Shown here piece after piece: positions 25,141-50,392 of a stretch of DNA of 50,392 bases. Both the position numbers and the translations under genes were made by a program. Source of the stretch: Bdellovibrionales bacterium. Lineage in GTDB: Bacteria > Bdellovibrionota > UBA1018. The notes under the pieces are model-generated. The model saw only the letters and a program-made list of their open reading frames with translations. It had not been told where the DNA came from and did no database searches. The stretch covers positions 1 to 50,392 of the forward strand of contig JAEUWC010000007.1 in NCBI GenBank assembly GCA_016786465.1. The letters are read 5' to 3'. Within the stretch, counting starts at the first letter, position 1, and every line of letters starts with the position of its first letter.

Positions 25141-25776
25141 GTGTCTATTCCTTCCATTCAAAGCCCGGGTTTCAGTTATGAAACTCGGGCTTTTGAACTT
25201 TTACAGGGTGAAGAAAGTCTGACGATCGAAGCTCTTCACGAAGCGCGACTAGAAGATCGAATCGTCGAACCGTACTTTGCGCAGATTTGGCCCGCCTGCC
25301 AGGTCCTTTCGGAAATTTTGAAAAATCGCGAACCGTCTTGGAAAGGGCTTTCCGTTTTGGAATTGGGCTGCGGGCTTGCCGTCCCTTCGATGTGGTTAGC
25401 GAAATGGGGTGCGAACGTGATTGCGACTGACGGTCACCCCGAAGTGCCGGCCTTCTTGACTAAAAATTTAGAAATCAACGGGCTTTCGGATCGGGTCCGA
25501 TTCGAAAACTTGGATTGGGAATCTAGCGAAGTTCGGTCCCTGGGAAACTTCGATTGGATCATCGCCAGCGAAATTCTCTATGACGAAGACCAGGTGAAGG
25601 CGCTGGCCTTTGCGCTTTCCATTCTTCGTGGCCCCAAAACAAAGACACTGATCATCGATCCAGGGCGTCCGTATTTGGAAACATTCTTGGAAGCTTTACA
25701 CACTTCCCTTGGGGTTCGCGTTGGCTTAAAAAATCAGACCGTCAAAGGCCGGAACTACTGCTTGATCGATTTCTAA
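25141..25776 (+). CDS. SAM-dependent methyltransferase, family-16-like
   Basis: 211 residues from GTG 25141, four bases after the protease stop. SAM-binding motif I is VLELGCGLAVPSMWLAKWGA; then VIATDGHPEV, ENLDW and FDWIIASEILYDE. This is the order seen in METTL21/family-16 protein-lysine methyltransferases, which carry D/E-x-x-Y at the last position (here SEILYDE). The target is unknown. Its last 35 bases overlap the oppositely oriented gene. Confidence 0.8.
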   Translation: MSIPSIQSPGFSYETRAFELLQGEESLTIEALHEARLEDRIVEPYFAQIWPACQVLSEILKNREPSWKGLSVLELGCGLAVPSMWLAKWGANVIATDGHPEVPAFLTKNLEINGLSDRVRFENLDWESSEVRSLGNFDWIIASEILYDEDQVKALAFALSILRGPKTKTLIIDPGRPYLETFLEALHTSLGVRVGLKNQTVKGRNYCLIDF

Positions 25777-26386
25777 TTCGAATATCGCGGATCACCCTTG
25801 AGTTTCGAATGACCATGAGGACCTCGTCGTCACGAGTGGGGTAATCGTAAATGAAGATATCGACAGGAACTTCTGAAAAGAAGCGCGCATAGTTTTTGCC
25901 AAATCGGTCTTCGACAAATCCCTCGATCATCGCCCTTCGAAAATCGATGACTTTTGCCGTGCTCGCGATGTCTAATTCCAGTATTTCACCGCCTTCATTT
26001 CGGTCCACGAATCCTTCGGCGAATCCAACGTGTTTTTGAGAAACCACATAGACCCCAGAATAAGGTTCGCCCCCTGGGAATATTTGGCCCCCGGACTGCG
26101 GAATGAAACCCATTTCTAAGATTGCATCAACGCGGGAACGCTGCCATGTGCCGTGATAAAGTTTGAACCCGGGCGCGACAGATTCAAGGTCGGCATAAAG
26201 ACCGCGCGTTCCTTCCGAATATTCGCGAAACTTCAGATCAGCTCTTTCGTCCGCGCCACTTGGGAAGTCTTGAAAAAAACCCAGATGGTTTGGAAAGCGA
26301 CTAAGAAATTCGCGACAGTCCGATCCATCCGCAAAAGATGGAACCACCAAAACTAAGGCCAGTAAGATCTGAAACTGTCTTCGCAC
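25742..26386 (-). CDS. secreted protein with ADP-ribosyltransferase-like fold signs
   Basis: 214 residues from GTG 26386. Signal peptide MRRQFQILLALVLVVPSFA, cut before DGSD. The frame is open upstream to 26599, but that part reads through a non-coding repeat and is not part of the gene. Residues 75-200 carry FKLYHGTW (His78), then a hydrophobic helix, SGVYVVSQ (Tyr113), EILELDI and DDEVLMVIRN (Asp187/Glu188), in the order of an H-Y-acidic ART/PARP-like site. This is a pattern match, not proof. It would be exported and could modify nucleic acid or protein, but the target is unknown. Confidence 0.5.
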   Translation of the reverse strand: MRRQFQILLALVLVVPSFADGSDCREFLSRFPNHLGFFQDFPSGADERADLKFREYSEGTRGLYADLESVAPGFKLYHGTWQRSRVDAILEMGFIPQSGGQIFPGGEPYSGVYVVSQKHVGFAEGFVDRNEGGEILELDIASTAKVIDFRRAMIEGFVEDRFGKNYARFFSEVPVDIFIYDYPTRDDEVLMVIRNSRVIRDIRIRNRSSSSSGL

Positions 26387-26436
26387 ATTCTTCTTGTCGG
26401 AGGCGTCAGACCATCCATTGAGAAGCGCCAAGAAAA

Positions 26437-26457
26437 TGGCGATCCCAACAGGAGTCG
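26437..26457 (-). repeat. displaced 21-base copy of the tRNA-Arg 3' end
   Basis: Bases 26437-26457 are identical to 26605-26625, the 3' acceptor and T-arm part of tRNA-Arg including CCA. An intact tRNA followed by a displaced copy of its 3' end is the usual footprint of site-specific insertion into a tRNA gene, though only 147 bases lie between the copies. Confidence 0.8.
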
Positions 26458-26578
26458 CCTTCCGGTTCTCGCGGCTAGCGCGCTCGACCTGCAGGCCGGG
26501 CTCGGCGCTTTCCCGCAAGCGGGAACCCAAACGCCTCCGCCATTCGCCCCTGTTGGAAGGTACAAACGCTTCGCGTTT
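26437..26578 (-). ncRNA. structured tRNA-linked element, copy A
   Basis: On the minus strand, in order: hairpin AAACGC-GAA-GCGTTT (26578-26564), GTACC link, CCTTCC (26560-26555), CCAACAGG (26556-26549), an 84-base GC-rich core (26541-26458) with hairpin CCCGCTTGCGGG (26523-26512), GGAAGG (26463-26458), then a tRNA 3' end whose CCTGTTGG pairs with CCAACAGG, ending in CCA at 26437. The last 21 bases equal the 3' end of the adjacent tRNA-Arg. Copy B at 49097-48949 has the same layout with different stem sequences. Whether it is transcribed is not known. Confidence 0.5.
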
Positions 26579-26604
26579 TTTCACTGCTGCGGTCGCCATG
26601 TATA

Positions 26605-26681
26605 TGGCGATCCCAACAGGAGTCGAACCTGTAACCCCCAGCTTAGAAGGCTGGTGCTCTATCCGGTTGAGCTATGGGATC
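26605..26681 (-). tRNA. tRNA-Arg(UCU)
   Basis: 77 bases including an encoded CCA. Acceptor GATCCCA pairs with TGGGATC, D-arm GCTC/GAGC, anticodon arm CCAGC-CTTCTAA-GCTGG with anticodon TCT after T33, T-arm ACAGG-TTCGACT-CCTGT, discriminator G. It decodes AGA. Its 3' end is copied 168 bases further on in the same strand, flanking a structured repeat. Confidence 0.95.
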
Positions 26682-48916: not shown

Positions 48917-48948
48917 AAATACAAACGACTATCAAATCGATTTCATAA

Positions 48949-49097
48949 TGGCGGAGAGGGATGTTCGACCTTCGGGTACTTGCGCTTCCCGCGCTCGTCC
49001 CTTCGGCAAGCCTCAGACGCCGCCCGCAAGCGGGCGCCCGGCGTCTTCCGGCCGTTCGAATCCCTCCCAAGGTACCGGACTCTGCACTGCAGAGTCC
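48949..49097 (-). ncRNA. structured tRNA-linked element, copy B
   Basis: On the minus strand: hairpin of 10-base arms (49097-49077), GTACC link, CCTTGGG (49072-49066), GAGGGAT (49066-49060) and a GC-rich core with hairpin CCCGCTTGCGGG (49034-49023). Then come CCCGAAGG (48976-48969), TCGAAC, ATCCCTC (48962-48956) pairing with GAGGGAT, and the tRNA-like end TCCGCCA at 48949. The element layout matches copy A; the pairing segments differ but remain complementary. Bases 49119-49098 upstream look like a degenerate tRNA 5' part (GGCAGAGTATCC). Confidence 0.5.
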
Positions 49098-49115
49098 TGA
49101 CCATCGGATACTCTG

Positions 49116-49305
49116 CCATTTCCTCTCAGTCAGACAGGTTTGTCGCTTCCACCCATTTCTAAAGAACTTTTTCCGAGCCCGAACTCTCGCAAGCGTGAAG
49201 CGTTCGCGAAGCGATGCGAGAGAGGACAGGAGTCCGCCGAGGGATCGACAAAAGTTCTTTAGAAATGGGTGGAAGTTCCTAGTCTGGGTGACTGAAAGGA
49301 AATGG
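49116..49305. repeat. long inverted repeat in non-coding accessory DNA
   Basis: Perfect 26-base arms at 49146-49171 and 49250-49275 (left arm begins CTTCCACCCATTTC). An outer 15-base pair at 49116-49130 and 49291-49305 (CCATTTCCTCTCAGT against its complement) has one mismatch. The interior holds a smaller GC-rich hairpin (CTCTCGC at 49184-49190 with GCGAGAG at 49216-49222). The structure lies between element copy B and the recombinase gene. The whole stretch 48917-49350 has no credible gene. Confidence 0.8.
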
Positions 49306-49311
49306 CGGATT
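49300..49311. repeat. 12-base direct repeat, near the recombinase gene
   Basis: AAATGGCGGATT, the same as 47491-47502. It overlaps the right outer arm of the long inverted repeat, 40 bases from the recombinase stop, and is a candidate attachment-site trace. Confidence 0.35.
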
Positions 49312-49330
49312 CGGCGATTAAACCGAATTC

Positions 49331-49350: not shown

Positions 49351-50392
49351 TCAAAACCGTGTGTCTGAAACGTGCCGAAGTCCCGTGACATTGGGTGAGC
49401 CTTCATCGGGACTTTCTTCAAAGAACCTGAGTCTATCTGTGATCCCTTGAATCTCGATTCCCGCTAACCTCACATAGTGCTGCATCGTCTTTAGCTCCTT
49501 CCAACCACAGATCTTCATGACCTTGGCAGCTTCAACCCCCTGCCTGAGCATCTGTGTCGCAAAACACGCCCGCAGGGTATGAAACTTAATGGAAGGAAGC
49601 CCATTCATGGTGCAAAAGGTTCTCAGGATTTTAGCCTGAAGCCCTTTATCCCATTGAGTGTCCCTATTAAAAACTTGGAGTCCCGTTCCAGTCAGTTTCC
49701 TTTGCTCAAGCAAGAGCTGCTTTAGCTCAGGACTGATTGGGACTTTTCTCCAGGTTCCAGCCTTGGTCGATTTAAACGACCTAAGTCTGCAATTGTAGGA
49801 ACGATGCACATTGATCGTCATGTTCTCAAAATCGACATCCTGCCAAGCTAGAGCGTAAAGCTCGCCTGATCGCATGCCGGTAAGAAGAGCAATGTGCCAA
49901 ATTCGTTTCCAAGGATGATCCTGCTCATTCGCTTTTTGAATGAGTGCCTGGATCTCTTGGAAAGTGAGAATTTCTGGCTGCTTCTCTTCGCCTCTTTTGA
50001 GAATGACTTCAAAAGTTGGACTTCGGTGGATGTGCGTAAGTAGACGTGAGTGAATCCCAAAATCAAAAACGCTTTTGAATATCTGTTTTAACTTCTTTCG
50101 ATATCCAAGACACAAACCAGCCTCTTTCATCTTTTCAAAGATGCTCACTAGGACAAATGGGTTTAGGTCCATGGAAGGTTTCTGAAGGTACTCCTTCGTC
50201 CACTTCCTCAGTGCTCCCAAATAGTCTTCGTGATTGATTAACTGGCGTTGTCCTGTTGCGACTTTGAGTCTTCGCTCGGTCTTATCCCATTCGTTTAGAA
50301 GATCGTCCCAGAGTATTCCGCGAGATTCGATCTCTTTGACCTGGTCTTCGCAAATTCGTCTGAGTTTCTTTTCAACTTCATGGGCTTCTTGC
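49351..50392 (-). CDS. tyrosine recombinase (phage-type integrase), N-terminus beyond window
   Basis: The frame is open through 50392, so the start lies outside; 347 codons are visible. The N-terminal part is helical and basic (LRRICEDQVKEIE, WDKTERRLKVATGQRQL), a SAM-like arm domain follows, then the catalytic domain: Arg in LLTGMRSGELYALAW, the beta-turn Lys in STKAGTWRKVPIS, HTLRACFATQML (His-x-x-Arg), and the nucleophile Tyr in TMQHYVRL. The usual His before Tyr is Trp (ICGWKELK), as in some integrases. Its position at the edge of foreign-looking DNA suggests it moves this segment. Confidence 0.9.
   Translation of the reverse strand, partial: QEAHEVEKKLRRICEDQVKEIESRGILWDDLLNEWDKTERRLKVATGQRQLINHEDYLGALRKWTKEYLQKPSMDLNPFVLVSIFEKMKEAGLCLGYRKKLKQIFKSVFDFGIHSRLLTHIHRSPTFEVILKRGEEKQPEILTFQEIQALIQKANEQDHPWKRIWHIALLTGMRSGELYALAWQDVDFENMTINVHRSYNCRLRSFKSTKAGTWRKVPISPELKQLLLEQRKLTGTGLQVFNRDTQWDKGLQAKILRTFCTMNGLPSIKFHTLRACFATQMLRQGVEAAKVMKICGWKELKTMQHYVRLAGIEIQGITDRLRFFEESPDEGSPNVTGLRHVSDTRF

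Follow-up and report, generated by a model that had tools for sequence, protein, structure and literature searches.

A folded repeat behind tRNA genes of Bdellovibrionota with arms that match the local tRNA

The window, the whole 50,392-nt stretch of Bdellovibrionales DNA that was analysed (contig JAEUWC010000007.1), carries a folding repeat of about 170 bases 3' of a tRNA-Arg gene. Copies of this repeat occur behind tRNA genes of many types in the phylum, and their arms match the tRNA that lies next to them. On balance, the evidence leans toward a non-autonomous, structured tRNA-tail element of the same kind as the RtT RNA of E. coli, whose arms would be copied from the neighbouring tRNA by fold-back template switching.

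Layout of the element behind tRNA-Arg(UCU)

All parts of the element are read on the minus strand. The 3' end of the tRNA-Arg(TCT) gene (26605..26681), which was identified by ARAGORN and the Rfam tRNA model, is called X1. It is followed at an offset of 147 nt by X2 (26437..26457), a direct and exact 21-nt copy of the tRNA 3' end (22 nt counting the next T) that was recognised in the sequence and in a layout scan. The insert between them starts with an outer arm, P1' (ATGGCGA, 26593..26599), which is antisense to the tRNA acceptor end. The hairpin P2 (AAACGC-GAA-GCGTTT, 26564..26578), whose helix covaries across copies, and a conserved GTACC link directly after it (26559..26563) come next. A comparison of copies found this link invariant in the first five and frequent in later ones. 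The arm X' (TTCCAACAGGGG, 26547..26558) is antisense to the 3' strand of the tRNA T-arm together with the first acceptor bases. Lastly, a structured core of 89 nt (26458..26546) contains the helices P4, P5, and P6, which were defined by covariation, and its boundaries come from the comparison of copies. In other words, the layout is X – X' – core – X, in which X1 is the tRNA end, X' its antisense, and X2 its direct copy.

The first-pass annotation had described an intact tRNA-Arg(UCU) ending at 26605, a displaced 21-base copy of its 3' end after 147 bases, and a hairpin with GTACC between the two (26578-26564 and 26563-26559), and the sequence confirms each of these. It had also reported an antisense match to the displaced end over eight bases; the match is present but longer, as TTCCAACAGGGG is complementary to CTCCTGTTGGGA within X2 over 12 bp, G-U pairs included. 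It was right that this arm was not copied from the tRNA's own 5' T-strand, the arm being antisense of the tRNA 3' end. Its picture of a structured core held in a T-arm-like clasp, which the displaced tRNA end closes, likewise stands, except that the core measures 89 nt instead of 84. The fold of the single window copy is unremarkable (z -1.4), and the case for the element rests on the family.

The only long frame across the 147-nt insert is a 5' extension of the downstream ORF. A 285-aa frame (25742-26599, minus strand) begins in the element and runs through into the next gene; Pfam returned nothing for it at E up to 0.01, and its real start is probably further inside. E. coli tpr also lies within the RtT repeat.

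Copies in relatives and the fit of their arms

A BLAST search of the window's own genome with a query of 261 bases found four further places (E 6e-46 to 6e-12). The best one includes the tRNA itself, and two of the four lie behind tRNA-Arg(CCG) and tRNA-His. With a threshold of E 0.001, two covariance models, the first built from five copies and the second from 36, identified eight copies in the window's genome. One of the eight is a second copy in the window (48944..49123, minus strand), an orphan without an intact tRNA directly upstream. The expectation that relatives would carry copies was borne out by the search of the phylum, in which 21 of 368 Bdellovibrionota genomes matched, although such covariance-model counts are lower bounds and the genome sample consists mostly of fragmented assemblies, one per species. 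The 21 genomes gave 61 matches that were aligned. Among these, 43 lie behind a same-strand tRNA gene, and the tRNAs represent 13 amino-acid types (Gly, Arg, Tyr, Gln, Ser, His, Val, Met, Phe, Leu, Lys, Trp, and Glu). Two matches are located at tmRNA ends, one recognised as tmRNA (L051) and the other judged by sequence only (L029).

The layout can also be seen independently of the core. A layout scan that covered 30 of the 39 tRNA loci of the window's genome, and a few more, showed that the direct repeats are 16-21 nt long at five tRNAs and 5-10 nt at the others. In this genome, the core-blind scan added a case at tRNA-Val(CAC) and another, decayed, at tRNA-Val(UAC); it also revealed further cases in four relatives (G007, G024, G016, and G027). 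By eye, the Val(CAC) core resembles the core behind tRNA-Arg(UCU) in G027, and the two tRNAs differ. Outside this sample, an exact long pattern had 0 matches in public genomes. A looser pattern returned six records, of which five are Oligoflexia or Bacteriovoracaceae MAGs and one is labelled only 'bacterium', and a pattern search of viral contigs gave no matches. The element matched no Rfam family when the window was searched at gathering and permissive thresholds, and nothing relevant on tRNA-downstream repeats was found in the open-access literature.

How closely do the arms fit the local tRNA? For 41 tRNA-linked copies, the antisense arm scored 9.2 with its own tRNA and 6.2 with other tRNAs. 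Likewise, the longest direct match averaged 15.7 with the own tRNA versus 5.1 with the others. None of 10,000 permutations reached either observed value, a result that describes the pattern but is not a strict probability because the copies are not independent. Furthermore, an outer inverted repeat of up to 23 bp, with one arm in the acceptor end, CCA, and trailer and the other 5' of the hairpin, exceeded shuffled sequences in 23 of the 41 copies.

The pairing proposed in the first-pass annotation is kept in the additional copies by covariation. Changes on both sides were present in 42 of 50 pairs, and 89% of the paired cells could pair, compared with 31-43% when partners were slid; both figures are inflated because the alignment was fitted to the structure. 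In P2 and P4, G·U pairs outnumber A·C, an asymmetry suggesting that it is the tRNA-sense strand that folds. Stems and hairpin arms can also arise and persist through template switching at quasi-palindromes (PMC8794818, PMC7202029). Covariation can thus result from template switching alone, and by itself it is no proof of RNA function.

Relation to RtT RNA and to integrative elements

The closest known system is the RtT RNA of E. coli (RF00391, rttR; the tyrT repeats), a link that the first-pass annotation did not draw. RtT is a discrete RNA released from a tRNA transcript. It has been little studied and is mostly treated as a by-product of a single E. coli tRNA operon, and a few RtT-like RNAs have been noted near other tRNAs. 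Both RtT and the element described here are tRNA-tail units of similar length that consist of a T-arm antisense, a core, and a direct copy of the tRNA 3' end. In E. coli tyrT, the antisense lies at +59 and is followed at +159 by a direct copy of 19 bases; the corresponding positions in the window are +48 and +147. The Rfam consensus of RtT has a clasp stem as in the element and terminates in CCACCA. The RtT combination of a tRNA-tail position with a terminal copy of the tRNA 3' end is present in the window element, and a clasp between antisense and copy that closes the core is present in the window copy and its relatives. Tandem copies are common to both, and the GGATGAGAA motif is common to RtT and the Ser copies of two relatives (G040 and G007). 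The motif GAUGAGAA follows the antisense arm in three Ser copies (L084, L175, and L033), whereas the window copy has GGGGCGAA instead. At two loci (L036 and L141), the unit is duplicated in tandem together with the tRNA end and trailer, like the tyrT repeats of E. coli.

The two also differ. The core of the element is not that of RtT, and, unlike RtT, the element carries a P2-GTACC insert, occurs behind many tRNA types and tmRNA within a phylum, and combines near-identical cores with differing arms. The RtT model, whose gathering cut-off is 45 bits, found no match in the window copy at E up to 10. None of 58 relatives exceeded the cut-off, the best score being 28.2 bits (G007). The three weak matches in these relatives include the one in G007, which lies behind tRNA-Ser(UGA) and has the full layout, and one in G032 that terminates in a tRNA-like CCACCA end. 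A weak match at L177 was rejected as a coding-like sequence with no tRNA. Two elements of G040 align with RtT from end to end at 22-25 bits. The window element is not a member of RF00391 as curated; the two probably fall in one broad class. Finding this layout in a second phylum, behind tmRNA and tRNAs of many types and with arms refitted to each tRNA, would make RtT a branch of that class.

The first-pass annotation had judged the element far too short for an integrated island, yet saw in it the footprint of tRNA-gene insertion. If the unit were the remnant of an integrative element, a tyrosine integrase would have acted by crossover in the T-loop, X2 would represent the original tRNA end after its displacement, and the remainder would be leftover. 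X2 does begin in the T-loop and extend beyond CCA, as at T-loop attachment sites, and the insert is bordered by direct repeats of the tRNA 3' end. Both tRNA and tmRNA genes are typical targets of integrative elements, and two orphan copies adjoin integrase genes. However, the integrative reading is improbable. There is no integrase gene within the 147-nt insert, and a unit without integrase is not a classical integrated island. T-loop attachment sites also have no counterpart to the antisense arm or to the single conserved core that lies behind many tRNA types with X' refitted to each local tRNA. At the orphans, moreover, an att-like tRNA end is positioned between integrase and element, which indicates that the integrase belongs to another element. 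The element explains why some tRNA ends are duplicated at places that would otherwise be taken for integration sites.

The orphan in the window illustrates this arrangement. A tyrosine integrase gene (49351-50391, minus strand; PF00589, E 1.3e-23) that is cut by the contig end lies just upstream of the second copy, and it is 45% identical to the integrase beside another orphan (L006). A displaced tRNA-Ser-like 3' end (GAATCCGCCA, 49303..49312, minus strand) is found between the integrase gene and the copy. Because of this position of the tRNA-like end, the orphans are best read as element-bearing tRNA genes that were later split by another integrative element.

REP and BIME sequences resemble the element in being short palindromic intergenic repeats, and some enterobacterial rtT-like sequences have been reported as part of BIMEs (PMC2965389). 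The element differs from them because it is bound to tRNA 3' ends and its arms are tRNA-derived. The Y1 REP-type transposase (PF01797) is also absent from four carriers (G012, G040, G350, and G352). Reverse transcriptase (PF00078) is absent from the same four and from G345 and G346. Neither enzyme is therefore needed now, and both were rejected as mobilisers. No dedicated mobilising enzyme is visible.

A different kind of mobility would follow if the X':X2 stem, which recreates the tRNA-end sequence, served as a folded single-strand site that a recombinase acting in trans could insert into tRNA genes. Some single-stranded phages and integron cassettes use folded attachment sites. A target-like stem that encloses a structured loop of some 90 nt fits such a site, as do the many small copies without genes. 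Nevertheless, this route is very doubtful, since nothing ties the element to any recombinase and several carriers lack reverse transcriptase and the REP-type transposase.

Apparent spread of cores and proposed rewriting of arms

Pairs of copies within one genome show what changes between sites. In G022, the cores behind tRNA-Arg(CCT) and tRNA-Met are 96% identical, 3 of 11 arm bases differ, and both arms match their own tRNAs over 11 bases. In G002, the cores behind tRNA-Gln and tRNA-Val are 88% identical and 7 of 11 arm bases differ; the arms pair over 11 and 10 bases with their own tRNAs but over 5 and 8 when swapped. In the core tree, which is short and poorly resolved, the cores cluster by genome (27 label changes against a shuffled mean of 32.4; 0 of 200 shuffles), whereas clustering by tRNA type is only marginal (25 against 27.7; 11 of 200).

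The first-pass annotation had suggested a look for empty sites at tRNA-Arg loci of sister strains, and orthologous loci indeed differ in the presence of the element. At tRNA-Leu(UAG) in genus g30, two genomes are occupied (G038 and G045), one has a decayed remnant that kept X2 (G043), and two have empty sites (G052 and G054). At tRNA-Arg(UCU) in genus g3, G002 has the element and G025 is without it, and the upstream flanks of the two loci are 82% identical through the tRNA. Such empty and decayed sites within a genus indicate that the element is dispensable. Taken with the matching arms on near-identical cores and the clustering by genome, they make it appear that cores spread and that their arms are rebuilt from the tRNA at each site. 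Close strains gave no instance of an insertion event, and gene conversion acting on the cores of long-established loci could produce a similar picture.

The main rival to a spreading element is a regulatory antisense role in the host. When transcription reads through from the tRNA, X' would act as an antisense specific to that tRNA, pairing with its 3' end and blocking its folding or maturation, and the copies would be selected and homogenised by gene conversion. Equilibrium folding predicts that the mean pairing of the tRNA T-stem drops from 0.54 for the tRNA alone to 0.07 with the element. RtT has also been reported as a modulator of the stringent response, and in Actinobacillus, Northern signals were obtained for RtT-like RNAs that lie close to tRNA-Asn and tRNA-Lys (PMC4986893). 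A regulatory role is nonetheless rather unlikely, since the occurrence is patchy, decayed and empty sites are found within a genus, and no tRNA type is fixed. The predicted T-stem is also unchanged by X2, and the idea that X2 guards the tRNA from X' was not supported by equilibrium folding. In addition, a terminator-like T-run intervenes between tRNA and element in 12 of the 41 copies, which argues against routine co-transcription.

How, then, would a spreading element reach a new tRNA and acquire matching arms? The most economical account is that the core and hairpin arrive at another tRNA 3' end, perhaps via the shared T-loop sequence TTCGAnTCC, and that fold-back (quasi-palindrome) template switching at replication would then rewrite both arms with the local tRNA as template. 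In quasi-palindrome switching, a single event matches one arm of an inverted repeat to the other (PMC8794818, PMC7202029), which supplies what the rewritten arms need. It is a mutation process and not an element, however, and alone it leaves the arrival of the core at a new tRNA unexplained. By analogy with E. coli RtT, the unit may be co-transcribed with the tRNA where no terminator intervenes, and it may be released as an RNA of about 150-170 nt. The stronger claim, that a folded core which lacks an enzyme of its own spreads from one tRNA gene to others within a genome and rebuilds both arms from the tRNA at each new site by fold-back copying, is a serious possibility with chances somewhat short of even. 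If true, it would represent a new mode of mobility in which one element fits every tRNA, and E. coli RtT would be one branch of it. The element also offers a natural system in which to test the copying of inverted repeats toward a new neighbour.

Several further observations concern individual sites. At L079 (G351:C115), neighbouring tRNA genes for Gly, Tyr, and Trp each have their own element, and the Gly and Trp cores are 94% identical. In the families f23 and f24 (L070, L071, L072, and L076), the tRNA gene often lacks CCA and the displaced copy has it, while at L069 the situation is reversed. The two ends are thus not always equal copies. A second hairpin repeat with a motif like GGCGGACTCCTGTCCTC lies in the window at about 49280-49150 (minus strand) and recurs at L005/L007, L014, L020, L035, and L059. 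It forms the tip of long perfect inverted repeats between the tRNA end and the element, as if this repeat, too, carried arms that match its site.
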